The notes below the pieces were generated by a model. That model did no database searches. It saw only the letters and a program-made list of their open reading frames with translations, and was not told the DNA's origin. From the IMG/VR virus record IMGVR_UViG_3300043446_004179, positions 1-37,210 of that record: a stretch of 37,210 nucleotides of DNA; one strand, written 5' to 3'. Position numbers and translations under genes: made by a program. This DNA is from a virus. The stretch's first letter is position 1. Each line of letters starts with the position of its first letter. Positions 13,986 to 37,210 of the stretch are shown in pieces.

Positions 13986-14600
13986 TTATAGGATTTTCCA
14001 ACCTTGATTCAAAAGCTCTAGCGCTTTCTTGTATTTTATATATTGGGTTTCTCCATCTTTTTCTATCACAACCTTATCATTTCTGCCATGTTTTACGGCT
14101 TTTTCAACTTTTTGCACATATCTGACCCCATCATCCACCATAAGAACTCCATTCGTATGATCTATTTCATGTTGAATACATACACATTCAAGCAATCCAT
14201 AATCCGAACCAACTGTTTCTTGTGTGATTGGTTCTGTGTCTGGCCCGAATGACAGCGGATTTGCATGATTCAACGTTGAAATTGTTACTTTCAACGAACG
14301 AATTGTGTTTACAAGTTTTCCAGGAATGCTCAAACATCCTTCTGTGAATACAAGCTTTTCCTTGCTCGATTCTACAATGGTTGGATTCATCAATATGATT
14401 GGATTTGCATCTTTTCTTACTCTTATTATCGATACCGCCTTTGGTATTCCTATTTGAATGGCACTCAATCCTATACCATTTGATAGCTCGTCGAGTGCTT
14501 CAATCAATTGCTTTGCTATTTGCTCTCCTTCTTCGATACTTTTTACTGGCTCTGTTTTCTTGTGAAGAAAATCTTTGTTTTTGATTATCTTGTAACGCAT
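13986..14600 (-). CDS. def: Peptide deformylase
   Basis: It removes the formyl group from nascent protein N-termini. All three signatures are present: motif 1 GIGLSAIQ (residues 42-49, with Ser where the family usually has Ala), motif 2 EGCLS (87-91, metal-ligand Cys89), and motif 3 QHEIDHTNG (143-151, two His ligands and catalytic Glu). An insertion between motifs 2 and 3 (residues ~111-133) is longer than usual. A C-terminal tail of ~45 residues beyond the catalytic core (KVEKAVKHGRNDKVVIEKDG) also goes beyond short cyanophage deformylases. Deformylase genes are well known in marine phages and are thought to speed maturation of host or phage proteins. Confidence 0.93.
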   Translation of the reverse strand: MRYKIIKNKDFLHKKTEPVKSIEEGEQIAKQLIEALDELSNGIGLSAIQIGIPKAVSIIRVRKDANPIILMNPTIVESSKEKLVFTEGCLSIPGKLVNTIRSLKVTISTLNHANPLSFGPDTEPITQETVGSDYGLLECVCIQHEIDHTNGVLMVDDGVRYVQKVEKAVKHGRNDKVVIEKDGETQYIKYKKALELLNQGWKIL

Positions 14601-16709: not shown

Positions 16710-18566
16710 TTAGCTTACCACTTCCGCATCTACCGTCTCTCCGTCCTTGGCTGGCTTTGGTCCCTTGTCTTTATACACAAGTTCTCCAAGCTTGCTAAGT
16801 TCAGAGATGGCATCTTTCATCTTACTTACCTCATCACTATCCAATGCTTTCTTGGCATTGGAAATACCTTCATTGACTTTGGAAACAATATCATCACTGT
16901 ATTTGTTGTCTTTCAGTTGTTTTTCCCAACCATATATCATATTGTCCAAACTGTTCTTGGTTTCAAGCTTTTCTTTTGCTTCTTTGTCTTTATCGGCATT
17001 AGCTTCAGCATCAGCCTTCATCTTCTCAATTTCTTCTTTTGACAGACCAGATGAGTTTTGAATAGTAATATTCTGAGCCTTACCTGTTCCAAGATCCTTC
17101 GCGGACACGTGTAGGATGCCATTGGCATCAATGTCGAATGTAACTTCGATTTGAGGTGTACCGCGAGGGGCGGGAGGAATACCATCCAACTTGAAGTTAC
17201 CAAGACGCTTGTTGTCTTTGGACAATGGGCGCTCTCCTTGCAATACTACGATGTCAACAGACGGCTGATTGTCGCTATATGTAGAGAACACCTGTGACTT
17301 CTTTGCAGGAATCGTGGTGTTGCGGGGAATCATTGGGGTAGCAACATTGCCAGCCGTTTCGATGGCAAGTGTGAGCGGAGTAACGTCAAGCAATAGAACA
17401 TTATTGACTTCACCCTTCAACACACCGCCCTGAACGGCTGCTCCTACTGCCACAACTTCGTCTGGATTTACACCTTGGTTTGGAGTCTTGCCGCCAAACT
17501 TCTTGGCATAATCTACAACCTTTGGCATTCTGGTCATACCACCAACAAGAACAAGCTCATTAAGCTCGCTGTTTGATACTCCCGCATCTTTTAAACAGTT
17601 CTTGTATGGAGCATCCATACGCTCAAACAACTTTTCACAAATCTGCTCCATCTTTGAGCGAGAAATGTTCAAGTTCATATGCTTTGGACCAGAGGCATCA
17701 GCCGTGATAAATGGAAGATTAACATCATATGATGTGGCAGAGGACAGCGCGATCTTTGTTTTTTCTGCTTCTTCACGCAAACGCTGGATAGCCATATTGT
17801 CCTTTGACAGATCAATTCCATTCTCTTTTTTGAATTCGGCAATCATGTAGTCCATGATCGCTCTGTCCCAATCATCGCCGCCCAGATGAGTATCACCATT
17901 GGTTGCCTTTACCTCAAATACACCGTCCCCGATTTCGAGGACGGTAACGTCAAACGTACCACCGCCAAGGTCAAAGACGGCGATCTTCTCGTCCTTCTTT
18001 TTGTCCAGACCATAGGCTAAGGATGCTGCGGTGGGTTCGTTGATGATACGCAGAACTTCCAACCCCGCAATAGTGCCAGCATCCTTGGTAGCTTGACGTT
18101 GAGAGTCATTGAAATAAGCAGGAACAGTGATAACCGCCTTCTTTACGGACTGTCCCAAATATGATTCTGCATCTGCCTTGATCTTGCCAAGAACAAATGC
18201 GCCGATTTGCTGTGGAGAATATTTCTTTGCTTCGCCGTTTTCGGTGACTTCAATCCAAGCATCTCCATTCGGACCTTCCACGACTTTATATGGAAGATTC
18301 TTGATTTCTTCTTGAACTTCGCTGAACTTTCTGCCAATAAGCCTTTTGGCAGAGAAAATTGTGTTCTTGGGATTGGTCACAGCTTGTCTCTTAGCAGCCT
18401 GTCCTACCAATCTTTCTCCATTTTTTGTAAAAGCAACAACCGATGGGGTTGTACGAGCACCTTCTGAATTGGTGATTACTGTGGCTTCACCTGCTTGCCA
18501 GACCGCCACGCACGAATTCGTCGTACCAAGGTCAATACCAATAACAATGTCATTTGATTTACTCAT
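16710..18566 (-). CDS. dnaK: Molecular chaperone DnaK (Hsp70), full length
   Basis: I start at ATG 18566-18564 ([19 protein letters not shown]); an extension to 18617 would run through the upstream inverted repeat and has no family counterpart. The 618 residues match bacterial DnaK. Visible motifs are the phosphate-1 loop [14 protein letters not shown], phosphate-2 [17 protein letters not shown], adenosine motif [11 protein letters not shown], the linker region [13 protein letters not shown], the substrate-binding domain ([20 protein letters not shown]) and a helical lid, ending [10 protein letters not shown]. It lies directly behind hsp20. GC is clearly higher here: two 60-base lines counted by hand gave 30 and 31 G+C, against 17 in a line of the 1566-residue tail gene. 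This suggests a later acquisition from a bacterium. No GrpE or DnaJ gene is in the window. Confidence 0.97.
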
Positions 18567-18576
18567 AAATTTGGTT

Positions 18577-18608
18577 GTTGAGCCATATACATTGGCATAT
18601 GGCTCAAC
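18577..18608. repeat. Perfect 12-bp inverted repeat upstream of dnaK
   Basis: Arms GTTGAGCCATAT (18577-18588) and ATATGGCTCAAC (18597-18608) flank an 8-nt loop, ending 10 nt before the dnaK ATG. No T-run follows on the minus strand, so it is not a standard terminator. It differs from the CIRCE consensus. It could be an operator, an mRNA thermosensor or stabiliser, or an intercistronic processing hairpin. Confidence 0.8.
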
Positions 18609-18626
18609 ATTTGTCAACTTTTTATT

Positions 18627-19079
18627 TTATAGGAGTTTAATACGCTGTGGCTTTTGTTCCTCAATCTTTAAACGAGGAAGAGTAACCTTCAATGTACCAT
18701 TTGTGAAATCGGCCTTGATATTGTTTTTATCAATACCTTCACCGACGCTGAATGAACGAGTAAAACTGGAACGCTTGATCTCTTTATAGATATAGCGGCC
18801 CTTACTTCCGTTCACAATTTCTGGCTCTTGCTTCTTTCCACCACGGATGACGAGTGTATCGCCTTCCAGTTCAACAGAAACATCTTCTTTACGAAGACCA
18901 GCAAGATCTGCTTCCAGTTCATATTTGTTGTCGTATTCAACAACATCTACTTTTGGATAGCTGGTTTTGCTATATGATCCAGCGTATGGAGTTACGCCAA
19001 ATCCATTGAAGACATCGTCGAATAGACGATCAAATGGGGTGAGGAACTCATCCCGTGTATATCTGCTTAGTGTACTCAT
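18627..19079 (-). CDS. hsp20: Small heat-shock protein, Hsp20/alpha-crystallin family
   Basis: The 150 residues have the family plan: an N-terminal arm with FLTPFDRLFDDVFNGFG, an alpha-crystallin domain from ~45 to ~140 (YPKVDVVEYDNKYELEADLA; RKEDVSVELEGDTLVIRG), the conserved NGTLKVTLPR (A-x-x-x-G-V-L-x-x-x-x-P-like) strand, and a short tail RIKLL resembling the I-x-I oligomerisation motif. Hsp20 holds unfolding proteins in a refoldable state and passes them to DnaK, which follows 60 nt downstream, so the two probably act together. Hsp20 genes occur in many T4-like cyanophages. A modest AAGGA lies 11 nt before the ATG. Confidence 0.95.
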   Translation of the reverse strand: MSTLSRYTRDEFLTPFDRLFDDVFNGFGVTPYAGSYSKTSYPKVDVVEYDNKYELEADLAGLRKEDVSVELEGDTLVIRGGKKQEPEIVNGSKGRYIYKEIKRSSFTRSFSVGEGIDKNNIKADFTNGTLKVTLPRLKIEEQKPQRIKLL

Positions 19080-19241: not shown

Positions 19242-20351
19242 TCAAAAATTAGGATGCCATTTCTCCAAATAAACCAACTGCGTTGCGCAGTCTAATGCAC
19301 TTCTTATAACTTGGTGCATATCATAATATTTGTATTCACCGAGTCTTCCTCCAAAAATCACATTCGGGTGGTTTGCGGCTTCTTCTTTGTATTTTTTATA
19401 TATCTCTGTATTCTTGGCGTCATTTACTGGATAGTATGGCTCTGTCTTTTCTGGAACATATTCAACGGGAGTTTCCCAACTAACCCAAGTGAATGGGCTA
19501 TCCGATTTTTCGAAATGCTTATGTTCGATTGTGCGAGTGTGCGGAACTTCTTTTTCTGTGTGATTTATAACTGCCACGCCTTGATAATTTTGCATGTTCA
19601 TCATCACATGATCCAATTGCACAGTCTTATATTCCAAATGCCCGTGCTTGTAACCAAAGAATTTGTCAATGGGACCAGTGTATATAACTTTCTTATGCTC
19701 TGGCAAATCTGAAGTAAAATAGTCAGTACTTGTTCTTACTTCTATGCCATTTAATAATTTTTCAAATATTTTGGTATAGCCTCCGATTGGAATGCCCTGA
19801 TACTTATCATTGAAATAGTTGTTGTCGAATGTGAATCTGACAGGTAGACGCTTAATAATTTCCTTTGGAAGCTCCGTGGCAGATTTTCTCCACTGCTTCT
19901 CAGTATATCCTTTGATTAGTGTATTATATACATCTGTGCCAACCAACTTGATTGCTTGTTCTTCCAGATTTTTTGGCTCGCCTATGCCAGATGATTGTTC
20001 CTCTATCTTTGCCTTTGCTTCTGCTTCTGTCTGCACTCCCCATAACTGGTAGAATGTCCACATATTGAATGGGAGTGCGTAAAGCTTTTCTTTGTGTAAA
20101 GCAACTGGAGTATATCTAAAATTGTTGAACTCGGCAAATTGATTTATCCATTTCCACACTTCATCGTCCGATGTATGAAATATATGCGGACCATACACAT
20201 GGAGATTTATGTTGTCACGGTTCTCGCTGTAACAATTTCCTCCAATATGATTGCGAGAGTCTATGACAAGAACCTTCTTTCCAATCTTGTTTAGCTCATA
20301 AGCACATATACTTCCAAAAAAACCAGCGCCAACAATCAGATAGTCGTACAT
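19242..20351 (-). CDS. glf: UDP-galactopyranose mutase
   Basis: This flavoenzyme converts UDP-galactopyranose to UDP-galactofuranose, the donor for Galf in cell-surface glycans. At 369 residues it has bacterial UGM length. It begins with the FAD-binding Rossmann motif DYLIVGAGFFGSICAYEL (GxGxxG), then VLVIDSRNHIGGNCY. It keeps typical UGM segments: NLHVYGPHIFHTSDDEVW, IKGYTEKQWRKSATELP, RLPVRFTFDNNYFNDKYQGI and the C-terminal VIFGGRLGEYKYYDMHQVI. The start is 1 nt after the stop of the GT25-GT11 gene, so it is the last gene of the sugar operon. The products of this operon could use Galf, but no obvious GT2-type galactofuranosyltransferase is present. Confidence 0.96.
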   Translation of the reverse strand: MYDYLIVGAGFFGSICAYELNKIGKKVLVIDSRNHIGGNCYSENRDNINLHVYGPHIFHTSDDEVWKWINQFAEFNNFRYTPVALHKEKLYALPFNMWTFYQLWGVQTEAEAKAKIEEQSSGIGEPKNLEEQAIKLVGTDVYNTLIKGYTEKQWRKSATELPKEIIKRLPVRFTFDNNYFNDKYQGIPIGGYTKIFEKLLNGIEVRTSTDYFTSDLPEHKKVIYTGPIDKFFGYKHGHLEYKTVQLDHVMMNMQNYQGVAVINHTEKEVPHTRTIEHKHFEKSDSPFTWVSWETPVEYVPEKTEPYYPVNDAKNTEIYKKYKEEAANHPNVIFGGRLGEYKYYDMHQVIRSALDCATQLVYLEKWHPNF

Positions 20352-20352
20352 A

Positions 20353-21852
20353 TTAAGTGCAAACTATATAACCGTTATCCCATTTCGTGGGTATTTTTAT
20401 CCAATCGTCGCACCATATATCTCTTGGATCTTCCGCCACATCTGGACCAAACCATGTTGATGGCGATATTACTACCTTGTCCTTGTTTCTGGATAACCAC
20501 GCTCCCCACCAAGAAAATGTGGAATTTGAAATCACATAATGATCGCATAATGAAAGTAACCACATCGCATCTTGGTCATAATAATTTTCCGCAAACACCA
20601 TGCCTTCATATGGAAGATTTTTCTTGCACCATTCAATATCATCGCTCACCACCAATTTTATGTCGTGATATGGAAGTTTGTTGATTGCCTTGTCTATGTA
20701 TCCATGAGTTACAACCGGATGGCGGCGGGGCTGAGTCAAATAATCTCCCCTTCTCACGTTTATAGCAGCCACCCGATGGGTGGCGAGAAAGGGGTAATCG
20801 GCAAATGCCTTTGCTATAAATTCTGGAGGAGCCGAGAATGCATCCTTGATTACCTCTTTGTATTTACCAAAAAATTTTTCAGACTGATACCATCCGGCAT
20901 ATATTGTTGGTTGATCTGTGGAAGGAGGTTCAATAGGTCCATGTGTAAATGGACCCCATATATGCTTTGACCTTGATGGTTCAGGTATCTTCTGTATTCT
21001 GAAATCAAACTTTCTAAACAGTCCTTTCTCCAAATGCCCAGTTGAAGATTCTTGTGACGGCACAATAAACTGGCGATCATATTCCAACGCTTTGGTATAT
21101 GCATGAGCAATCTGAAACATCAGATTTCCTGTTCTACCTTGCAATCTTGGTGCAATATAATTTGGCTCAATCATCGGTCCCAGTTGTTTCATATTTTTTG
21201 AAGGTTTGAACTTTACTTTTTTATAGCTGGTCAGATATCCACTTGGCCCGTCGCTTTTTCCAAAAGCATTTAAATCACTGTCCCCGTCCATTTGGGCTAC
21301 TGCCAGTTCATTCGTTATATATTTTCTTATGTGCGGTCTCGCGGATACCCATCCATCAATTGCACTGTCCGCAAAAGGCTTGTATGGAAGTATTTTCTCG
21401 ATTCCTTTTCTGGTATATCCAGTGGCATGCATTGCCAATATTTTTTCTGGAACGGACAAGTTATCCGAAACCTTGTGCATAATTCCAATCGGATGTCCTC
21501 CAAAATAAAGCATGTCCCAGTCTGGAAACTTTTGTATGTCTTCCAACGCGGATTCTATGATTTCAATAGCCGTTCTTGGGCCGTCATTATAAAACATTAT
21601 ATCATCCTCGAATATGAGAACTCTATCATGTCCTTCATCGATGATCTTTTTGAACAACTGCATATATGAGGAACCACAATAATAATGACGCTTCATATGA
21701 TCCGGCTCATTGATCCCATCGTGCGCTGAAAATCTTTCAAAGAAATTTTCCAATCCGACCTTGGATATTTCCTTTTCGAAATGACTCTTGCGATCACTTC
21801 GTCTATCAAGGTTTATGTAATACGCTTTCTGGAAAAATTTATCTATTTTCAT
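20353..21852 (-). CDS. Two-domain glycosyltransferase: GT25-like N-terminus fused to GT11-like (alpha-1,2-fucosyltransferase-type) C-terminus
   Basis: Residues 1-~215 match the GT25 (LPS/collagen galactosyltransferase-like) pattern: KAYYINLDRRSDRKSHFEKE near the start, acidic donor-site motif VLIFEDDIMFY near residue 80, and MLYFGGHPIGIM. From ~235 the protein resembles GT11: GRTGNLMFQIAHAYTKALEY (GRxGNxMFQ opening), AAINVRRGDYL (HxRRGDY-like GDP-sugar site) and ISNSTFSWWGAWLS (SNSTFSWW signature). GT11 members usually transfer fucose in alpha-1,2 linkage. Having both catalytic domains in one chain suggests two consecutive sugar additions. Its start overlaps the previous stop (ATGA), and the mutase follows after 1 nt. 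Acceptor and sugars are not predictable from this sequence. Confidence 0.85.
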   Translation of the reverse strand: MKIDKFFQKAYYINLDRRSDRKSHFEKEISKVGLENFFERFSAHDGINEPDHMKRHYYCGSSYMQLFKKIIDEGHDRVLIFEDDIMFYNDGPRTAIEIIESALEDIQKFPDWDMLYFGGHPIGIMHKVSDNLSVPEKILAMHATGYTRKGIEKILPYKPFADSAIDGWVSARPHIRKYITNELAVAQMDGDSDLNAFGKSDGPSGYLTSYKKVKFKPSKNMKQLGPMIEPNYIAPRLQGRTGNLMFQIAHAYTKALEYDRQFIVPSQESSTGHLEKGLFRKFDFRIQKIPEPSRSKHIWGPFTHGPIEPPSTDQPTIYAGWYQSEKFFGKYKEVIKDAFSAPPEFIAKAFADYPFLATHRVAAINVRRGDYLTQPRRHPVVTHGYIDKAINKLPYHDIKLVVSDDIEWCKKNLPYEGMVFAENYYDQDAMWLLSLCDHYVISNSTFSWWGAWLSRNKDKVVISPSTWFGPDVAEDPRDIWCDDWIKIPTKWDNGYIVCT

Positions 21853-23027
21853 TTAAGCAGATCGGAGATGAAGTCTGCCCACATGTGTCCGATTTTCTTG
21901 GAATTGAACTTCGAGTAGATATGATCTTTTCCATTTGCTCGTATCTGTTCTTTTATCTGTGGATTTTGTTCAAGATATTTGATTTTATCCACAATATTGT
22001 GGGTGCATGTGAATTTTCCATCCAAGTCTTTGCTCAACGGTTCTGCCTGCATTGCTTCTGGATTGGTATTATTTGGCCAATCGAGCCATTGGCAAAAGCC
22101 GTCGTAATATTCTGGCAATGCCCCTAACCTATATGTGATTACAATCGCACCAAGAGCAATTGCCTCGGCAACGACGCAGGAGAATGTATCTTTGTGAACA
22201 TCCTTGTAAGGCGTGTATAGGGGGTAAATAAAATAATCACTCTCGGCTATATGAGTAAACAATGTCTTCTTATCGACACCGTTATGCATTTTGAAAAATG
22301 AATCCTGATGTGCATGTGTACACATCAAATAGTCAAATGCATGAAATTCAGCATCTGACCAATTAAGATCTCTCACAGCTTGAACGGCGACATTTCCGCC
22401 TCTTGCCCACGCGGCATGAAAAACAACCTTGTGCTGTTTTCTTGTTGGATTTTTCTGTAACACTTCATCGACCATTTCATCCATTATTGGATTTCCTATC
22501 AATGTTGTCTTTGTAGATGGGAGAGCATTTATCGCCCTTTCTATGGTCGTCTTGTTCATTCCCTTCTCCCACTCGGATATATTTACAAATCCAAGTTTCA
22601 AATTGTGCTTTTTTGCATAATTTATAGTTTCGTCTATGCCGTATATCCATTGCATATGACACCAATAAATCAGCGCCTTTGTGACCTTTATGGGAAGATC
22701 GTCATATTTGCTAAACCATAGACTGTTTACCAATATGTCAAATTCCCTGTTCTCTATTCCATCCAACTGGAAGTTTGAATATGTCACACCTCTGATCTTT
22801 TTTCCGGGATTGAAGAATATGCCTTGGCTTGCATATTTGGCTTCCAAATGAGGTTCAAGCTTCTCCGACAAGATGAAAACTTCATGACCTTGTGAAGCAA
22901 GTTGTTCGGCAACAATTATGGTGCTGCCGTCTGTGCCAGATCCTCCTCCATTTCCATATCTTATGGTGTTTCCGTCGAGATAATTACTACGGCGGCTATT
23001 GCCCAATACGGTAAATAATATTCTCAT
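21849..23027 (-). CDS. GT-B fold glycosyltransferase, GT4-like (392 aa)
   Basis: The N-terminus (MRILFTVLGNSRRSNYLDGN) opens a Rossmann domain and is followed by a Gly-rich donor/acceptor loop (RYGNGGGSGTDGSTII) typical of GT4 enzymes. The middle has HMQWIYGIDETINYAKKHN. The C-terminal Rossmann domain has FHAAWARGGNVAVQAVRDL and the nucleotide-sugar site FSCVVAEAIALGAIVITYRL with GALPEYYDG, the usual ExxxxxxxE-like region of GT4. There is no signal peptide or membrane segment, so it is cytoplasmic. ATGA overlaps on both sides tie it into the sugar operon. Donor sugar and acceptor cannot be inferred. Confidence 0.85.
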   Translation of the reverse strand: MRILFTVLGNSRRSNYLDGNTIRYGNGGGSGTDGSTIIVAEQLASQGHEVFILSEKLEPHLEAKYASQGIFFNPGKKIRGVTYSNFQLDGIENREFDILVNSLWFSKYDDLPIKVTKALIYWCHMQWIYGIDETINYAKKHNLKLGFVNISEWEKGMNKTTIERAINALPSTKTTLIGNPIMDEMVDEVLQKNPTRKQHKVVFHAAWARGGNVAVQAVRDLNWSDAEFHAFDYLMCTHAHQDSFFKMHNGVDKKTLFTHIAESDYFIYPLYTPYKDVHKDTFSCVVAEAIALGAIVITYRLGALPEYYDGFCQWLDWPNNTNPEAMQAEPLSKDLDGKFTCTHNIVDKIKYLEQNPQIKEQIRANGKDHIYSKFNSKKIGHMWADFISDLLK

Positions 23028-24283
23028 AGTTTTTTCTCGTATCGCTTACCCCATTGCTTTGATTTGCTGAAGGAATACATCACCAATCGCTCTGGTGCGT
23101 TGTCGGCAATAATTTCAACGTCAACGGAACTCTTCCTGTACTTGAAAATATCAGGATGTGTGCTTGGTTTAAAATCAACTCTGTACAAATTAGTATTGTA
23201 CTTGTCAACAATTCCAAAGGTAATGAATTCAAAGTCTCCAATATCCTCTTCAATGAAGTGACCGACATCCCAAGACACGTTCATTTTGAGTCTTTCCTTC
23301 TTGAATTGCTCTTCCCAATCTGGCGGATTGGGTGGTTCTTTGACGAGCAGTGTATAGTCTTGAATTTTGCATGCCTTGAAATGGAATCCTCCATATACTT
23401 CATAATCATGCAACGATCTTTCTTTACCAAGACCATAAATTCCCATATCAATACCATGTTCTTCTTGTCCAAACAACTGGCGAGTCTTGTTTCGAGCATA
23501 TACATCTCTTTCGCCGCTGGTTTTCTTTGTGGCGCTTTCCTTGCCGTGATCGTCCCAATGTTTCGGACGATATTTGCGAGTATATTCATGCCACATTACC
23601 ATGCGGTATGGACTGAAGAAATCATACCCATGAGTGAAAGCACGCACGCTCATGGTAGTTTCTTCGGTATACCCTCCAAAGTAAATGTCCGGATCGTATG
23701 GAACTTCTTCAATGAATTTTCCTTCAACAAAAAAGAAATGTCCGCTTAATGTACGAGCCTTGATAACAGTGTTTCTTGTCTTGTAATCCTGTATGTACCA
23801 AGGCATGCTCATAAGAAGCTTGTCATAACTGAATTCATATTGGGACATGAGGCACGGAACTTGTCCCGCCTTTTCAACTGGTTCCTTTGTATCAAATGGA
23901 GTGCAATATGTGCTGATGATTGGTTTTTTTGCCATTGTCAATGCTTGATTGTAATCTTCCATAAGAATTACATCCCAATCTTGCACAAAACGATGATGAC
24001 TGTCTATTTGCAGTGTGTATTTTTCTCCGCGATACAATTTGTTGGTGACATTTCTTGCCCAACCAAGACCTTGACTTTCAGAATAGTCATATGTTTCAAT
24101 TCTGAAATTCGGCTTGCCAATGAATTCATCCAAATTTTCAGTGTCGTCCTTTTGCCAACAAATTCCGAATGTCAATTTTTCCGGATATTTTGCTTTCTCA
24201 ATCATGTCCTTGATAGTGGGAGCAAGTTCAGGATCGCGATACGAAGCAATTTGTACAAATATCAAATCATTGTTATTACTCAT
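23024..24283 (-). CDS. GlcNAc-transferase-like protein, GT60-type (PF11397 family), 419 aa
   Basis: The GT-A domain starts IFVQIASYRDPELAPTIKDM, followed by LTFGICWQKDD and the sequence SQGLGWARNV. The metal/donor site reads YTLQIDSHHRF (residues ~90-99), the QIDSHxRF signature I associate with the 'glycosyltransferase (GlcNAc)' family. It also has SGHFFFVEGKF, PYDPDIYFGGYTEETTMSVR and MVMWHEYTRKYRPKHWDD. Characterised GT60 enzymes are eukaryotic polypeptide alpha-GlcNAc-transferases acting on hydroxyproline of Dictyostelium Skp1 or on Thr of trypanosome mucins; bacterial and phage homologues are mostly untested. It is the first gene of the sugar operon and overlaps the next by 4 nt. AAAGG lies ~10 nt before the ATG. 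Confidence 0.85.
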   Translation of the reverse strand: MSNNNDLIFVQIASYRDPELAPTIKDMIEKAKYPEKLTFGICWQKDDTENLDEFIGKPNFRIETYDYSESQGLGWARNVTNKLYRGEKYTLQIDSHHRFVQDWDVILMEDYNQALTMAKKPIISTYCTPFDTKEPVEKAGQVPCLMSQYEFSYDKLLMSMPWYIQDYKTRNTVIKARTLSGHFFFVEGKFIEEVPYDPDIYFGGYTEETTMSVRAFTHGYDFFSPYRMVMWHEYTRKYRPKHWDDHGKESATKKTSGERDVYARNKTRQLFGQEEHGIDMGIYGLGKERSLHDYEVYGGFHFKACKIQDYTLLVKEPPNPPDWEEQFKKERLKMNVSWDVGHFIEEDIGDFEFITFGIVDKYNTNLYRVDFKPSTHPDIFKYRKSSVDVEIIADNAPERLVMYSFSKSKQWGKRYEKKL

Positions 24284-24546: not shown

Positions 24547-26871
24547 TTATGAGCATGAGCCGTTTGTAGACCATGTACCTGCCGGAGCATTTCTCAAGCA
24601 GTTTGATGTGGTCTGTCCATCATACACAGTTTCTGCACCGGTGCCACCATTGCAGAGATCTACGCTACCAACATATGTGTATCCATTGTCGTTCTTATAA
24701 TAGAAACACACTGGCGTGTTTGTTGGGGTTGGAGTAGGAGTCTCGGTTGGGGTTGGAGTAGGAGTCTCTGTTGGCGTTGGGGTTGGGGTTTCAGTTTCCG
24801 TCGGTGTTGGGGTTGGGGTAGGCGTATCCGTTGGACCAGCCGTTGTATTTGTAGGTGTTGGAGTTGGAGTATTGGTTGCCGTTGGGGTTGGAGTCGGAGT
24901 TGCCGTTGGACCAGCCGTTGTATTTGTAGGTGTTGGAGTTGGAGTATTGGTTGCCGTTGGGGTTGGAGTCGGAGTTGCCGTTGGAGAAGACGGATTGAAG
25001 TATTGAACAACGGTGGTGCTGTAATATGTTCCAAGATTTGTGACCAATACACCGCGAGCTTCAACCCAATATGGAGGAGGATTATATGGCTGAACATTTC
25101 CTATAAACAGATAGTCGCTATTTGCTGGAACATTGCTTGGAGGTGCGCTATTTGAACCTTGTGACACATATGATGCAGCACTTAAGCCCGGTTGTGTTGC
25201 AGCGGTTCTCATTTCTATTCTATGGGAAACAAATGTCTGTGATTGAGCATAGGCCGAAGAATCTGTATCCATGTAGCTTGAATATACATGTATTTGTACA
25301 TCAACCGAAGGAGGTATTGATGTGGGCGTCGGTGTTGGGGTATTTGTTCTGGTAGGTGTCGGTGTTGGAGTAGCTGTCGGCGCTCCAAATGGAGTATTTG
25401 TTGGGGTCGGTGTAGGCGTCGGTGTGCGTGTAAGTGTTGGTGTTGGAGTTGGCGTGAACGTTGGTGCTCCTGGTGGAGTTGATGTCGGAGTAGGAGTAGG
25501 AGTAGCGCTTGGTCCTACGGTTGGCGTAGGCGTTGGGGTTGAAGTGAGTGTAGGAGTTGGCGTCGGAGTGCCTGTTGCTGTCGGAGTTGGCGTAGGCGTA
25601 GGTGTAGGTGTAGGTGTCGGAGTTGGAGGCAAATAAAATACATCCCCATATTCCGCAACATATCCTTCAAAACTAAATGTGCATGGTGTGGCGCTTGCGC
25701 TGTAATGCACATATAATGTTCTATCTGTATGGGCCACTCCCAACTCAAGCAATTGCAGATTGTTTCTGCTGTATTTCGCTTCCGTCAATGCAACACGATT
25801 GTTGTTCCAAGAATATAGCCCACTTGCTCCGAGGGGCGCTGGGGTTGAAGTAGAACCAATGGAAAGAAGTGGAGATCCTGAACAATACACAAATGCATCG
25901 GTCAATACATATCCGATAGGAAGAATTGGACGGTCTGTGCCATTTCCGAGGAAGCTCGATGTGCCGTCATTTGTAAATCTTAGGCTAAATTCCTTGTCTG
26001 GATTTGTGGCATATGCTCCTGTCACAGGAAGCAACAAGTGATGATTTGATTTTGAATCAAGCCACTGTGTTGGTCCCGGATTAAGATTTGTCGGAGTATA
26101 TGAAGATACAAGGGTGGCATCTGAATTCTTCACTCCACCATTAAACAACGATGTGACCTGTGCTTGGGTTAGCGCGGCATTAAAAACATGCGCCTCATAA
26201 ATTGTGCATTCTATATTTGGCAATGTGAGATGTCCATTGCCCATTATGATATATGAACTGGTGATCTGTGTTGCTGCTCCGCTCAATGTTCCAACAAGAG
26301 TTGAATTCAAATACATGGACAACAGTCCGGCATTTGTTCTTGTCAGCACGACTTCAAATGGTTTGTCCGTGTAATTGTCTATGAAGTCCGAGAATGTAAT
26401 TTTTTTGGTTGCTGCCCCGTCGTCGGTATATCCTATCAAATCATAATCTTCAACTCCGATATATGCTGATTGCCCACCCGATGTAACATCATCTGGAGAA
26501 TTTCCGACACCAAACAATACTCTTGAGTTGGCTTCAGTCAATATAGAGGACGGTATGAATGCTCTTACCATCAAACTGAATTCCGTTCCTATATTTGGAA
26601 ATGTTGAATAGCAACGAAGATTTACATCCGATTCTGGGAATATCGTCTGATCAAATGCAAGTCCATTTGCTGTTTGATATGGCTGTCTTGGAATAGCCAC
26701 ATCCATCAACCCACCAGAAATAATATACTGAGCCAACTCACCAGCATAGATTGCTTTTGTTTCTCCTGTAGGGGATGTGTTTTCATTCACATCCACCAAC
26801 GGAATCAAATCGCCAAAAACAAGTTGGCTACCACTTACTCTTCTCAACTGGGTTGTTTTCTGATTGGACAT
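24547..26871 (-). CDS. Thr-Pro-rich adhesin/tail protein with LamG-like domain (774 aa)
   Basis: Residues 1-~60 start [20 protein letters not shown] and look like a short virion-attachment domain. Residues ~75-240 form a LamG/concanavalin-like sandwich ([60 protein letters not shown]). Another beta domain runs to ~410. Then come a TP-rich linker (~414-517), a second folded domain (~520-625), a second TP linker (~627-720) with two perfect 25-residue repeats, and a Cys-containing C-terminal domain ([20 protein letters not shown]). No signal peptide is seen. The plan of folded beds joined by mucin-like linkers suggests a long flexible receptor-binding protein. A TATTTATA octamer lies 15 nt before the ATG. 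Confidence 0.75.
24828..24977 (-). repeat. Perfect 75-bp tandem duplication in the TP-rich gene
   Basis: Two adjacent 75-bp units (24828-24902 and 24903-24977) are identical base for base by eye. Each encodes 25 residues of a Thr-Pro linker ending TNTTAGP. Perfect identity, including wobble bases, points to recent duplication. Confidence 0.85.
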
Positions 26872-30116: not shown

Positions 30117-30251
30117 ATGAACACATTTAGAGACAGAATGAATCATGCTAAAATACATTTTAGATGTTTACTAACAACATTGCGTAAAGGAAAAAATCCA
30201 ATGTTTTATATCAAGGGATTATTTCGTACCTTCTTTAGCATCAAGTATTAA
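30117..30251 (+). CDS. Small basic plus-strand protein (44 aa)
   Basis: A short frame from ATG 30117 to TAA 30251 encodes a highly basic peptide: [20 protein letters not shown], then [20 protein letters not shown] and SIKY, about a quarter Lys/Arg/His. The amphipathic, aromatic-basic composition fits a DNA-, RNA- or membrane-associated peptide. An upstream ATG (30112) is followed at once by a stop. The frame overlaps the convergent TP-rich gene by only 4 nt and fills the gap neatly, and the motif upstream is in its own orientation. It is short, so chance cannot be excluded. Confidence 0.45.
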
Positions 30252-31729
30252 CAGAGGCGAGTTGAAACCGTTGCAGATCCTTTGCTAACGCTTGTTATTG
30301 AAACTCCGCATGCAACAGCATATACTGGCGAATTTGGTGCATTAAATCTTCCATTTGCTGTTCTGCTTACTCCATATGGATCAACATAAACAAATGAATA
30401 TTCATTGTTCAAATTTGTGACCGCGTCTATTTGATAAGACGGCGTTCTTGGGTCGGATTCCGCACATGAGTATTTGAATCTATAGTTTGTTCCATATTTG
30501 ATATTCAACGATCCTGCTCTTATGCAAATTCCATCAAGCTGAGAAGGTGTTGTATATGGAGTGCCATTCAACAATCCGGTGCTTTGATAATTTCCAGATG
30601 CATCGACCCACTCCGCCTCTGCCAATCCATAATTATCATGGTCAATCCATATTTTATAATTTGGAGGAGTTGCCGTTGGAGTCGGTGTTGGAGTTGGGGT
30701 TGGTGTAAACGTTGGCGTCGCTGTTGGAGTAGGTGTTATCGTGGGAGTTGATGTTGCTGTAGGAGTAGGTGTGAATGTAGGAGCCCCTGTTGGAGTTGGA
30801 GTAGGTGTTGGTGTCGGAGTTGCCGATGGATTTATTGTCGGCGTTGACGTTGGAGTTGGTGTAGAAGTTGGGGTTGCAGTTGGAGTTGCGGTCAAAGTTG
30901 GTGTCGCAGTCGGCGTTGGAGTCAAGGTTGGAGTCGGCGTTGGAGTTGGAGCGCCACACTCTTTCAATTCTCTCGGATCAAACACAAGAGTATCATTATA
31001 TCCCAGAATCTCAAGAAGCTCTATAGAAGGAGAACCAACCAATGACGATGTTATAACTTGACTCGGACCGCTTTGGACGCTGCTTATAACTCCAGCTGTT
31101 CCACTGAACAAATTTCCTGATAAATTTCTGGTGTGATAGATATATTTTCCTGTTATAAAATTAGACTTCAGTGTTATATTGCTTGTACCATCGGTATATC
31201 CGTACAATGTCGCCGATCTTATTTTTCCAGTACCAAATGTTGAAATTTTTAATTTTGCAGTATCTAGCGTGCTTGATTGGCGAGAAAAACCGAAGTTAAA
31301 AATTGTAGGAGAGTTCCCATATGCCGTGGAATAATATTCAGTTTCTCCGTTTGTCAATGAAGATGTTGAATTATTTCCAAACACATAAACTGGATCATTT
31401 GGTGATGCTGCTCTCGACCATGTTGCCGCAAATGAAATATTTGTTACATTGTCTGTTTCCCAATATAATTTTAATTCATTGTTGCATTTTACCGATCCCG
31501 TTACTTCTATCAACGTGGTTGAAAATGACTGGGTTGGGAATGGCAGCGGAGTAGGCGTTGGAGTTATCGTCGGCGTTGGCGTAGGTGTAAGCGGATTTCC
31601 CCATCCATCATTCAATGTATCCGCTTCTCCTTTGTAGTATGCAACACCAAGGTCGGTTCCTATTATTTCTCCGATTTTTCCAAACACGCTTCCTGTTGGA
31701 GTTCCATGTGATGAAATTGTATTAGACAT
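30248..31729 (-). CDS. Thr-Pro-rich adhesin/tail-fibre protein, paralogue of the next gene upstream (493 aa)
   Basis: Residues 1-~44 form an N-terminal module shared with the 350-residue protein ([20 protein letters not shown], then Y-K...D..N.GW). A short TP linker follows (~45-63), then a beta-rich domain (~65-255: [40 protein letters not shown]), a long TP linker (~258-357), and a C-terminal domain ([40 protein letters not shown]) ending STRLC. There is no catalytic motif. The shared N-terminus probably attaches both proteins to the same site on the virion while the rest binds different ligands; this is inference. Confidence 0.75.
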
Positions 31730-31741
31730 ATGGTAAAGATA

Positions 31742-32794
31742 TCAAATTGGTATAGATATTACTATAAAACCGTTTCCACTGGATTCCGATGCACTGTTTG
31801 AATATCCTCCATTTTGTCCGCCATAACCACCTACTATATTTCCTGCGGCCCCTCCCAATCCCCCTCCACCACCACCACCACCACCGCCGCCTCCAAGGGT
31901 ATTTGCTGTGCCATCACCACCGTATCCATCAATATATTCTCCATCAACATTTACAAAAACCCCATCACCGCCTCCGTTGTATGCGCTGCCTCCACCTCCT
32001 CCACCACCTCCTCCTGCATACGCCATAGGATCTCCGTTATTATCCAAAATCACAGATGCTGCGCCACCTCCTCCGCCGGCTCCGTCACCAGCACCTCCTT
32101 CAGCAACACCGCCGCCGCCTCCTCCACGCAATAATCCATCACCACCAGATCCTCCTACACTTATATAGTCATCTCCCCTAAATGCATCTCCTCCGCCATT
32201 TCCAGGAACCAATGCATACGGGGCGGTTGATAAATAAAAATTCCCATAACTTCTTCCGCCTGGACCACCAGATCCCCCAGGATTTCCGTTGGCATAAGAT
32301 GAGTCTCCATTTCCCCCCGCCGCTCCGTAAATATCATATCCAATATACATCGTGTTTCCATGATAAGAACTTATTGTCCATGTACTGTATCCAGAAACTA
32401 TCAATGGACCTCTTGCATCAAGATCCCAAACAGTGACTCCACTAACAGCTGGACTTACATTTATGGTTCTCATTCCATACCCAGTCGTTGTAGGAGTAGG
32501 AGTAGGAGTCACAGTTGGTGTTGGTGTTGGACTTGCGGATGGATCTATTGTTGGCGTTGGTGTTGGAGTGGCAGTTGCCGTTGCTGTCGGTGTCGGTGTT
32601 GGAGTTGGTGTAAAAGTTGGTGTAGGAGTTGGTGTGGGAGTAGCATTGTATGGAAACCATCCCACATTGAAAGAATCAGAATGCATTTTAACATACTTCA
32701 ATCCATCGCTCATTTCAATCAAAGATCCTATGGTTCCAAATACTTGGCCATTCGGATTTCCGTGTAATGGAATTGTTCTTACATTATTGCCCAT
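31742..32794 (-). CDS. Gly-rich adhesin with shared N-terminal module and TP linker (350 aa)
   Basis: Residues 1-~48 repeat the module of its neighbour ([20 protein letters not shown], then GWFPY). A TP linker covers ~50-103 (GVSGVDPSA-like breaks are absent; it reads [16 protein letters not shown]). A small beta domain ([20 protein letters not shown]) leads into a ~190-residue Gly-rich region with [40 protein letters not shown] and [18 protein letters not shown] blocks, ending FIVISIPI. Long Gly runs arranged this way are known from phage gp38-type receptor-binding adhesins, which pack as polyglycine-II sandwiches. It starts 1 nt after the upstream stop. The family link is inferred from composition. 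Confidence 0.7.
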
Positions 32795-32795
32795 T

Positions 32796-33662
32796 TTAAT
32801 TTATCAAATCCTTTAATTTTATTGTATTTTCACGAGGAGGCATTGCTGCACTTGCCTTGGCAGGAAAATCAAATCCTTTCGCCGCCTTGTTTCCTTGTCT
32901 TCCCCAAAAACTTGAGCCAAATTCTGCTTTGTCTTTTTCCAAATGTTTCTTGGCAAGCAATTCTTGTTTTTCAGCAGCGCTTAATTTTTCTTTTGTATCT
33001 GGAAGTTGTCCGGTTAATTCATAATGAGTATAAAATCCGCGACTATCAATAAATTCATATAAAGCCTTCTCGACATTCATGTTCAAATTTTTCATGAAAC
33101 TCAACACCTGTTTCATATATGGCATAACCTTGTCTTTTTCATTCCAAAAACTTATTGCATTTTTATTCACCCAAACTCTACCAGAAATCTCGTATGCCTC
33201 TACACCATTATTTCCACCTCCGCGAATTTCAAGGTCGGAAAAATATTTGCCATGCTTTTTTATATATTTGCGAATATCATCAAGCTTGCTCGCATTTAAG
33301 CCGTGAAAATAACAAGATACTTCGTTGTCTCTTCTTGATACAAACCCTGGATCTCCATGCAGATGACCAAATTCATAACTAAATTGAAATGTATTTTCGC
33401 TATCCAATCTTTTTTCTGCACCGCGAAGCATGAGTTCCAAACGGCCATGCGCGGAATTGTGTTTGTATATTACTATCTTGTCTTTTGGTTCTATGAAAAA
33501 CGGATATGCGTCAGATTCAGTCCAATAAGCCGCACCAACGTCTCTTTTTATACCAAGTTTTTTAAGTTTTTGCTGATCTTCTGGAGCAATAGTAAATTTA
33601 TCAGGACTCTCCGATAGGATGCTTTCCATCAAAAATTGGATATCAAAAGGTACTCTGTTCAT
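32796..33662 (-). CDS. Hypothetical protein (288 aa)
   Basis: It begins [20 protein letters not shown] and contains two probable alpha/beta parts: residues ~25-105 ([60 protein letters not shown]) and a helical part after ~115 ([40 protein letters not shown]). The last 60 residues are charged and probably disordered ([20 protein letters not shown]). No catalytic signature is seen. It lies between adhesin genes with a 1-nt gap downstream. A TATTTATA octamer is 10 nt before the ATG, so it may lead a transcript with the two TP-rich genes after it. Confidence 0.6.
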
Positions 33663-33672
33663 ATATTCAATA

Positions 33673-33680
33673 TATAAATA
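33673..33680 (-). promoter_or_regulatory. TATTTATA octamer before the 288-aa gene
   Basis: The sense octamer is 10 nt before the ATG at 33662 (GTATATTTATATATTGAATATATG). Confidence 0.4.
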
Positions 33681-33695
33681 TACGAATAGATCCTA

Positions 33696-33890
33696 TTATA
33701 GAGGCTTTTTGGGGGCTTGCGGCTTGCCTGACAATTGTGGGGTATAGTTTACTTTGGCATCATTTTTATCCTGTATGCCTTGTTTTACAATATCAGCCGC
33801 CGCCTGATTAAAAGTTGGTGAGTTGCTTGCTGCACCCATAACTTGCATTTGTTTTATGACATGTCCGATTTCTCTTATATTTGGATTCAT
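33696..33890 (-). CDS. Small hypothetical protein (64 aa)
   Basis: It starts MNPNIREIGHVIKQMQVMGA and continues SNSPTFNQAAADIVKQGIQD, then a basic Pro/Lys-rich end (SGKPQAPKKPL). It is mostly helical with a disordered tail and has no recognised domain. It starts 8 nt after the stop of the giant TP-rich protein. The spacer (TATATATATG-rich) holds no ribosome site. Its location next to fibre genes suggests a small virion or assembly component, but nothing in the sequence proves it. Confidence 0.55.
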   Translation of the reverse strand: MNPNIREIGHVIKQMQVMGAASNSPTFNQAAADIVKQGIQDKNDAKVNYTPQLSGKPQAPKKPL

Positions 33891-33898
33891 ATATATAA

Positions 33899-36800
33899 TT
33901 ATCTGTAGTGCGCGATAATTGGCGAATCGCTGCCACTTATATCCTGATTTGTTGTCAAACGAACTTCTGTTTTTGGATCAAATGAGGCAGTATAATTAAA
34001 ATATGTCACATAAAACAGATTGCTTCTAACAACCGTGATTGGAGGATGAATCTCATAATAATCAAAGCTATATTTCTTCTGAGTTGCGTTCATGACAATC
34101 TCGTCGCCATATGTAAATTCATCTTGAGGAACTTGTATACTTTCTTTTCCAAGGCCAAAATATGTGTTGAATAGATAATCAACAACAGGAATCGCCATTC
34201 TTCTGAATCTTGGATATTCTGTGCTGTATGTCACTCCGTAGTTTTCCATTTTTATTCCATCGTTCGTGACTGGATCATAAAGCACATCGCACGGATTTCT
34301 CGCCAACAGAAGCAATCTTGATTGTGGTATTTTCTTGAACGGAGCAATTGGTCGATTGAATGATTTTTCACCAACAACATGATCATATTCATCATACAAT
34401 CCTTTTCCTCTTACAAAATTGAAATTTGTGATGTATCCATAAAAATGATCATCCACATTAGGCTTTGTTCCTCTACCTATTATCAACGGATCCTTGTTGT
34501 CCGTGATTCTGATATTGTCATCTCTTAAATCTCTGGCCAACAACACTCCGTCTTGGAATATGTGTATTTTGTTACTGAAATGTGAAACTGCGATGTGGGT
34601 CCAAACATTCAACGATGAACTTAATGTGGCCGAGAGTCTGACTCCATTGTCCATAAAAAATTCAAGCACACCTTCGTTTATTCTCGCACCAAGATCAAAG
34701 CTTGCAGAAATTGGGCTACCCAAAGAAAATACCGTTTGTGGATTATTATTTGGAAATGAACCTGTATATGTCTGTTTCATATACCATTCGATTGTAAAGT
34801 CCAATGTGCTCAGTGCCCAATAACTGCTTGATTCAACTTCTGCACGAGAAGATCCATCAAAATACATGCTACCAGTAGGATTGTATGGGCACGGTGTTGG
34901 GGTTGGGGTTGGTGTTGGCGTCCCCGTGTTTGTCGGGGTTGGAGTTGGCGTAGGTGTCCCCGTGTTTGTTGGAGTTGGAGTTGGTGTCGGATCAACGCAA
35001 GGCAGATTATCTATTGTAACCGAAGAATCGTGCATAGACCAAAACTGGTCATTCTTCCATAGAGCAACGTACATATTGCTTCCACTCTGCACGCATATTG
35101 CATTTGGATATGTTCCAACCGAAGTAAATGTTGAACTTACACTATCTCCGGAACAATTTTTGTAATACACATACATTGTGTGGTTGGCAATGAATTGATT
35201 GCCAGTTGTATTGTCATAATCGTTTTGACCGAATACGACTGTGTATGATGAACATTGCAAAGGAACTGGAGTCTCTGTTGGCGTCGGTGTTGGAGTTTCA
35301 GTTGGAACCGGTGTCTCTGTTGGAGTTGGTGATGGAGTAGGAGTCGGTGGAAGGATTATGTATGGATAATCTGTGCTATACGAAGCACCGTTGTATTGCG
35401 TGACGGTATATCCAATCGGACCGCTGTCTGTCAAATATTCTGCCTCGCTATTAACATCAAGTAGTAGCTTGGTGTTTACTATAGGAGATATCGGCAACGG
35501 CGGGTTAAAATAGTATTCTCCAATGTTGCTGCCGCTATACAAACCCGTTCCTTTGACGAAATGGAAGTTTGTGATATTTCCTTCAAAGTATGTAGCACTA
35601 GGAACCGCTGGGTCATAGCCGATGATGAGAGGGTGCAAACCATCCGATATGTTTGTAGCGTCTCCTCCGCGAGCAATAAGAACTCCGTTTTCAAAAATGT
35701 GAATATATCCACCCACCCTACTTACCGCATAATAGTTCCAATTGTTTTCCCAGTTCGTCATCGTTGCCGTGAGAGCTTGGCTTCCGTTTTCCCAAACAAT
35801 GAAGTTACCCAGTTCCACACTCACGCCGAACGACGCATTGGGATATGCGCCGAGGGTGAATAGGCGGGAATAACTGCTGGCACCAAGTTGTTGCTTTTGA
35901 TACCACTCCACGGTATAGTCGCCTGTACCGACGCTCCAATCAGGACTGTTTGGTATGCTTAAATATTGCGTATAGCCATCAAAGTGAATGCTTCCTGAAG
36001 TGCTGTATGGTGTTGGTGTTGGTGTTGGGGTAGGTGTGTCTGTAGGAGTTGGCGTGGCACTCGGCGTAGCAGTTGGTGTCGGAGTGGATGTCGGCGGAAC
36101 AGGAGTGGCGGTTGGCGTCGGCGTAGGAGTATCTGTAGGTGCAGGAGTATCCGTCGGCGTTGGCGTCGGCGTCGGAGTGGATGTCGGCGGAACAGGAGTG
36201 GCGGTTGGTGTCGGCGTAGGAGTATCTGTAGGAGTTGGAGTATCCGTTGGTGCAGGTGTTGGTGTCTCCGTATCTGTTGGTGTCGGTGTCGGCGTAGGAG
36301 TATCTGTAGGAGTTGGCGTATCTGTAGGGGTCGGCGTTGGCGTCGGAGTTGGTTCTGGGAAATTACCCTGATACTCATTATACTCTGTCAATATTTCTCC
36401 ACTGCTAAGTGCGCAATTATAAATCTTGATCAATCCAATATTACCGAGGAAATATGAAGTAGGAATACCAACAAAGTGAGAACCTATGTATGTGTTTTCA
36501 GCGGTGTAAGTTTCTGTTACAGAAGTTTTTATGTCAACTTGAACGCCGTTCTTGTACAACGCCATTGTATTTGTCGCATCATTGAATGTGACAGCGACCT
36601 GATACCAAGAGTTTGGAGTTATAGGATCTGATACAACAGAATAATTTCCGCCTACACCCGCATACAGATTTCCACTGCTTATCCAAAATGGACTATTCTG
36701 ACTTGATACTATATTTCTTGCCTGAGTTACTTCTGTTGGAAATACCCACGCTTGAATTGTGTATGAAGTTCCTGTATTAAGCGGTTGACCAATGCTGATA

Positions 36801-37210
36801 TTACTACTGCCATTGAAATAAAATGATCCGCTGAAATCTGTGGTCCATGTTGCGCCATTTATACTGCCAGACAAGCTTGAAGTATCAGCAAGATTGTACC
36901 AAGTGTTCCCACTTTGCGGATATGAACTTGTATTTTGGGCATCATAGTATGCAACAAGACATGATACGGGAGCATATGTTGGAGTTGGTGTTGGGGTAGG
37001 AGTAGCGGTGTCGGTAGGAGTAGGCGTTGGGGTTGCCGTGTCCGTTGGCATTGGTGTCGGAGTCGGCGTGTCGGTTGGTGGCAGCGGCGTTGCTGTTGGA
37101 GTTGGTGTCGGAGTCGGCGTGTCGGTTGGTGGCAGCGGCGTTGCTGTTGGAGTTGGTGTTGGAGTCGGCGTGTCCGTTGGCGGGATTGGCGTTGCTGTTG
37201 GAGTTGGTGT
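33899..37210 (-). CDS. Giant Thr-Pro-rich protein with three LamG-like domains (N-terminus beyond right edge)
   Basis: The frame is open to the right edge, so at least 1103 residues are visible and the true start is outside. From the edge: TP linker (1-80), LamG-like domain 1 (~85-280: [33 protein letters not shown]), TP linker (~283-403), LamG 2 (~410-600: [39 protein letters not shown]), short TP linker (~622-649), a Cys-containing beta domain, TP linker (~738-773), LamG 3 (~780-965: [38 protein letters not shown]) and a C-terminal domain. LamG 2 and 3 are clear paralogues. LamG folds often bind sugars. The flexible string of beads suggests a long receptor-binding fibre. No signal peptide can be judged. 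Confidence 0.8.
36078..36232 (-). repeat. 93-bp-spaced near-perfect direct repeat in a TP linker
   Basis: A ~62-bp segment starting GTCGGAGTGGATGTCGGCGG at 36078 recurs at 36171 with one visible base change; the unit offset is 93 bp (31 codons). It lies inside the linker between LamG 1 and LamG 2. Confidence 0.7.
37053..37205 (-). repeat. 51-bp minisatellite, three copies, at the right edge
   Basis: Units at 37053-37103, 37104-37154 and 37155-37205, each encoding 17 residues of Thr-Pro linker. The first two are identical by eye; the third differs at a few bases. The array may continue past the window, so copy number is a minimum. Confidence 0.8.

Follow-up and report, generated by a model that had tools for sequence, protein, structure and literature searches.

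A fused GT25–GT11 glycosyltransferase within a recurrent phage gene module, and its putative part in glycosylation of a Thr/Pro-rich fibre

The fused gene and its two domains

The window analysed here, itself an IMG/VR virus record of 37,210 bases, carries a group of glycosylation genes that all lie on the minus strand and mostly touch or overlap by 4 nt. Among them is a single open frame encoding 499 amino acids, in which two glycosyltransferase domains are joined by a short linker. The relevant features are as follows; the boundaries of halves and linker within the fused protein are approximate.

19242..20351, minus strand: UDP-galactopyranose mutase (UGM, glf), 369 aa; TIGR00031, 403 bits (cut-off 303.75); PF03275, 5e-72
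20353..21852, minus strand: GT25-linker-GT11 fused glycosyltransferase, 499 aa, one open frame with Pfam and PHROG matches; the same 499-aa fusion occurs in contig L001
20356..21162, minus strand: GT11 half, residues 231-499; PF01531 and phrog_2644, alignments, model
21163..21264, minus strand: linker, residues 197-230; fast-evolving in comparison with L001
21265..21852, minus strand: GT25 half, residues 1-196; PF01755, alignments, AlphaFold model
21849..23027, minus strand: GT4-like glycosyltransferase, 392 aa, overlapping the fusion gene by 4 nt; weak Pfam GT1/GT4-type matches below cut-off, phrog_2170 at 1.3e-8, conserved in the module
23024..24283, minus strand: GT60-type polypeptide GlcNAc transferase homologue, 419 aa, overlapping the GT4-like gene by 4 nt; PF11397, 1.3e-59; phrog_24687, 7e-86
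24547..26871, minus strand: Thr/Pro-repeat fibre-like protein, 774 aa, candidate acceptor; 146 Thr and 99 Pro, weak lectin-like match

An initial annotation of this DNA had placed the fused gene correctly at 20353-21852 and had given no strand; the strand is minus, and the plus strand of the same interval is full of stops in the same frame. The five motifs it quoted are all found in the translation, starting at residues 13 (INLDRRSDR), 82 (EDDI), 239 (GRTGNLMFQ), 366 (VRRGDY) and 443 (NSTFSWW). Its central observation, that one chain unites two distinct glycosyltransferase families, is borne out by domain searches, in which the N-terminal part matches GT25 and the C-terminal part GT11, each above its Pfam cut-off.

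The PF01755 (GT25) match covers residues 8-90 (E 1.1e-8; 35.7 bits against a gathering cut-off of 24) and does not extend beyond the profile's first half. Residues E82, D83, D84, G118 and D166, which are invariant in 42 phage GT25 relatives, are all present in the fusion, and the EDD motif aligns with FEDD of COLGALT1. An AlphaFold model of this half, built from a GT25-only alignment, has a pLDDT of 93.4. Its best Foldseek match is the GT25 domain of COLGALT1 (TMq about 0.69), and its best PDB matches, namely COLGALT1, mimivirus R655 and a bacterial GT25 beta-1,4-GalT, agree with the model in assigning a GT-A fold. Alignments and model together point to a galactosyltransferase-type, GT-A domain, predicted to transfer a galactosyl or glucosyl residue from a UDP-sugar.

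The C-terminal half matches PF01531 (GT11) over residues 363-487 (E 3.3e-25; 89.4 bits against a gathering cut-off of 23.9) and PHROG 2644 over residues 238-487 (E 2e-45). R367, R368, G369 and D370, the SDD at 403-405, and S444, F446, S447, W448 and W449 are invariant in the GT11 alignment (A4), so that the HxRRxD and SNSxFSWW motifs have invariant counterparts in RRGD and NSTFSWW. The model's pLDDT is above 90 across almost the whole of residues 231-499. Foldseek's best PDB matches for this part are AtFUT1, NodZ, FUT8 and POFUT1, with E-values of about 1e-7 to 1e-4 and low TM scores, since the query was the full-length model with its poorly modelled N-terminal half; they place it within the GT-B fold of the fucosyltransferase superfamily. 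We infer a GT-B domain of the alpha-1,2-fucosyltransferase type, with GDP-fucose as the predicted donor.

Each half departs from its family in one motif: the GT25 half reads YCxxSY where most relatives read GCxxSH, and in the GT11 half N replaces the usual H two residues before RR (NxRR rather than HxRR). Close relatives share both departures.

Origin and conservation of the fusion

A tblastn search of IMG/VR recovered the same 499-residue fusion in an independent contig (L001, 5001-6500, found a second time as L190), 73% identical to the window's protein and aligned without gaps. The GT25 halves are 78% identical, the GT11 halves 74% and the 34-residue linkers 35%, with pN of 0.14, 0.17 and 0.47 respectively; pS is 0.83 in the GT25 half and 0.76 in the GT11 half, values at which synonymous sites are saturated and no dN/dS can be given. 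To judge from this comparison, both halves appear to be under purifying selection, and the pattern of sequence divergence is that of two functional domains held together by a loose linker. In separate trees of the two halves, the window and L001 are monophyletic (support 100/100 for GT25 and 98/93 for GT11), which points to one shared origin and makes a single fusion event the simplest account. The GT60 genes of these loci give a tree that branches differently, with unfused loci (L188, L189) closer to the window; given this conflict, exchange between phages of the fused gene, or of its flanks, is probable.

Fusions in the order GT25-GT11 are known from this one lineage only. Most relatives are unfused, with the two families encoded by separate neighbours in the order GT25>GT11, overlapping by 4 nt or lying a few nt apart, while others have the order GT11>GT25 with an overlap of about 16 nt. 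When the GT25 half alone was used as bait, 31 distinct phage loci were found, 10 of which have a GT11 gene within 150 nt and 17 of which have one somewhere in the locus. Among the 80 best bacterial GT11 loci, GT25 is adjacent or overlapping in 13, in both orders, and none of the 80 contains a GT25-GT11 fusion; nor was the full-length fusion found as one chain in cultured phages or plasmids. Cyanophage S-SM2, a cultured phage, has the same two families as overlapping neighbour genes (SSM2_215/216), although there the genes are separate, in the opposite order and in other surroundings. A 747-residue phage protein (L035, 4971-7214) resembles the window's fusion in carrying GT11 and GT25 in one chain, but in reverse order and with a third, galactosyltransferase-like domain in the middle (GT11-GT7C-like-GT25); it is an independent fusion. 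GT4-GT25 fusions also occur within the same module (L189, 9245-11098; L218, 9260-10911). On the evidence of these loci, gene boundaries in the cluster shift often, domain fusion recurs and the link between GT25 and GT11 is a recurrent one. Two of the loci also carry an extra gene of 229-234 aa near GT25 (L188, 12285-12974; L003, 4310-5014), the products being 49% identical to each other; in L188 it sits between GT25 and GT11.

The frequency of separate, adjacent genes among relatives raises the question of whether the open frame was created by a frameshift or an assembly join between two such genes, which the initial annotation had named as an outcome that would overturn its reading. We regard this as scarcely credible and reject it: the frame is uninterrupted, an independent contig has the identical gapless 499-aa architecture, which by itself makes an assembly join very unlikely, and the linker is homologous but diverged between two fused genes that are sisters in the trees. 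The same annotation would have been overturned by a half that had lost its catalytic residues, and family-invariant residues are kept in both. A related reading, that a single half is active and the other has become an acceptor-binding or regulatory domain after losing activity, could draw on the two motif departures of the window's clade described above. We consider it improbable, because it sits poorly with the invariance of the EDD, G118 and D166 positions across the 42 GT25 relatives, with that of the RRGD and SxFSWW residues across A4, and with the slow amino-acid change in both halves.

A recurrent module beside Thr/Pro-rich genes

Although the initial annotation was right about the two complete families, it overlooked the larger module in which they lie beside Thr/Pro-rich fibre genes, and these surroundings matter more than the fusion itself. 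The GT60-type neighbour scores 202.9 bits against PF11397 (cut-off 21) and is 61-79% identical to its module homologues; a sequence-profile search for related solved structures returned none. Scanning with this protein gave 80 loci, and after dereplication 35 with a GT4-like gene, among which GT25 is found in 28, GT11 in 21 (every one also with GT25) and UGM in 27. A PF11397/GT60-type transferase, a GT4-like enzyme, GT25, GT11 and UDP-galactopyranose mutase make up a recurrent, co-directional phage module.

In the 774-residue protein encoded next to the GT60-type gene, TPTPTP stretches occur within residues 404-528 and 618-729. Thr/Pro-rich frames are a frequent companion of the module: one lies no more than 6 kb upstream in 16 of the 30 module loci with enough sequence, compared with 3 of 22 other GT60 loci (Fisher p 0.004, optimistic because the loci are related), and in 12 of those 16 it is within 400 nt. 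In 22 of 47 loci, against a chance expectation of 5.3, the Thr-richest frame is the one immediately upstream of the GT60 gene, an enrichment whose significance is inflated by the same relatedness. About half of the module loci have no Thr/Pro-rich frame upstream.

Three more TPTPTP-repeat proteins are encoded at 30248-37210 of the window, one of them a 1103-aa frame that contains several concanavalin-like (Laminin_G_3) domains; they are possible additional glycan acceptors. More distant phage GT60 genes (L242, L252, L259) lie near upstream, Thr-rich proteins with collagen-like GTSGTNG repeats.

Proposed function and comparison with known systems

On balance we lean towards a joint explanation, drawn from the sequences and from the analogies discussed below: GT25 and GT11 would once have been separate neighbouring genes, which fused once and were kept, and the resulting protein would be a bifunctional glycosyltransferase in a module that decorates the phage's own fibre, rich in Thr, with a short O-glycan. 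Synthesis would start on Thr residues of the repeat-rich fibre, where the GT60-type enzyme would attach a first sugar. Gal or Galf would then be added by the GT4-like enzyme and by the GT25 half, with UGM as the source of UDP-Galf, and the chain would end in a fucose-type sugar that the GT11 half takes from a GDP-sugar. The fusion would hold the two activities at a 1:1 ratio, and one half could use the product of the other as its acceptor. Such a scheme accommodates the two sequential additions, galactose and then fucose, suggested in the initial annotation; these are reasonable inferences in which donors, order and shared acceptor are putative, and they are strengthened by the repeated neighbourhood of GT25 and GT11 in phages and bacteria. 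A broader generalisation, possible but on the doubtful side, is that a widespread phage group encodes a mucin-like Thr O-glycosylation pathway, with a GT60-type initiator, GT4-like, GT25 and GT11 extenders that are sometimes fused, and UDP-galactopyranose mutase, decorating its own Thr/Pro-repeat fibres with an oligosaccharide that contains Galf, Gal and Fuc.

A PF16363 search for GDP-mannose dehydratase (GMD) was empty for the window and for the L001, L002 and L003 records, which may be incomplete; a supply of GDP-fucose by the window's phage itself is thus unsupported, and the donor would need to be provided by the host or by genes outside the sequenced part. Five relatives do carry GMD homologues, near GT25/GT11 genes in three of them (L018, L066, L068) and near GT11 in the other two (L033, L029). 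All but one of these homologues score somewhat below the TIGR01472 cut-off; their position supports a GDP-fucose donor in those relatives.

The main rival to fibre glycosylation holds that the enzymes alter the surface of the host cell, be it LPS/O-antigen or capsule, for instance in superinfection exclusion. Both GT25 and GT11 belong to the classical LPS/EPS families, and they adjoin in bacterial genomes, and cyanophage GT11/GT25 genes near sugar-nucleotide genes were read as cell-wall modification genes by their authors (PMC9602691). The core of the present module is, however, a PF11397 polypeptide-type GlcNAc transferase located just downstream of Thr-rich structural genes, and annotation of the window's genes revealed neither a flippase nor a polymerase. 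We therefore judge modification of the host surface unlikely, while taking it seriously, and continue to prefer a glycan on the phage's own fibre.

The preferred scheme has a close parallel in the Skp1 pathway of Dictyostelium and Toxoplasma, in which Gnt1 (GT60) is followed by PgtA, a bifunctional GalT/alpha-1,2-FucT composed of GT2 and GT74 (PMC6939170). Like the fusion, PgtA combines GalT and alpha-1,2-FucT domains in one chain and acts after a GT60 GlcNAc transferase, its domain order varying between species; unlike the fusion, which pairs GT25 with GT11, it is a eukaryotic cytosolic enzyme acting on hydroxyproline of Skp1 (PMC6939170). No prolyl hydroxylase (2OG-Fe(II) oxygenase, PF13640) was found in the window or in the L001, L002 (168 kb) and L003 records, possibly incomplete; a Skp1-like, hydroxyproline acceptor chemistry is thus unsupported, and Thr is preferred. 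Chlorovirus PBCV-1 provides another virus-encoded multidomain glycosyltransferase with Gal and Fuc domains, A111/114R (GalT-XylT-FucT), which builds consecutive residues of a structural-protein glycan; it differs in having three domains, with a GT8-like GalT and other families, and in acting on a capsid-protein N-glycan of a eukaryotic virus (PMC7826918). In Trypanosoma cruzi mucins, alpha-GlcNAc-Thr is formed by a GT60 enzyme, and some mucins contain Galf (PMC3769586, PMC7504415). The phage module shares with that system a GT60-type enzyme as predicted initiator, a Thr-rich repeat protein as candidate acceptor and the logic of a UDP-galactopyranose mutase; it differs in belonging to a phage with a bacterial host, and its glycan is a predicted one. 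To our knowledge, GT25/GT11 extension enzymes are not part of T. cruzi mucin O-glycosylation. A literature search yielded no description of a phage GT25-GT11 fusion or of a bifunctional phage fucosyltransferase, which is weak evidence given the limited collection searched. The enzyme logic, GT60 followed by GalT and alpha-1,2-FucT in one chain, is already known from the eukaryotic Skp1 pathway; what is new is the variation on it, with GT25 paired with GT11 in a phage module.

As a 'Rosetta stone', the fusion links two families that adjoin in many phages and bacteria and predicts that they act jointly on one glycan. The module would offer a concrete example of O-glycan synthesis by phages themselves, the candidate acceptor being encoded next door, and glycosylation of the fibre could influence adsorption, protease resistance and phage antigenicity. 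If active, a bifunctional Gal/Fuc-type enzyme of GT25 and GT11 would also be useful in glycan synthesis.

Elsewhere in the window, a full-length phage DnaK (Hsp70, 6.9e-261) adjoins an Hsp20 small heat-shock protein at 16710-19079, and a peptide deformylase homologue (PF01327, 1.1e-28) is encoded at 13986-14600.
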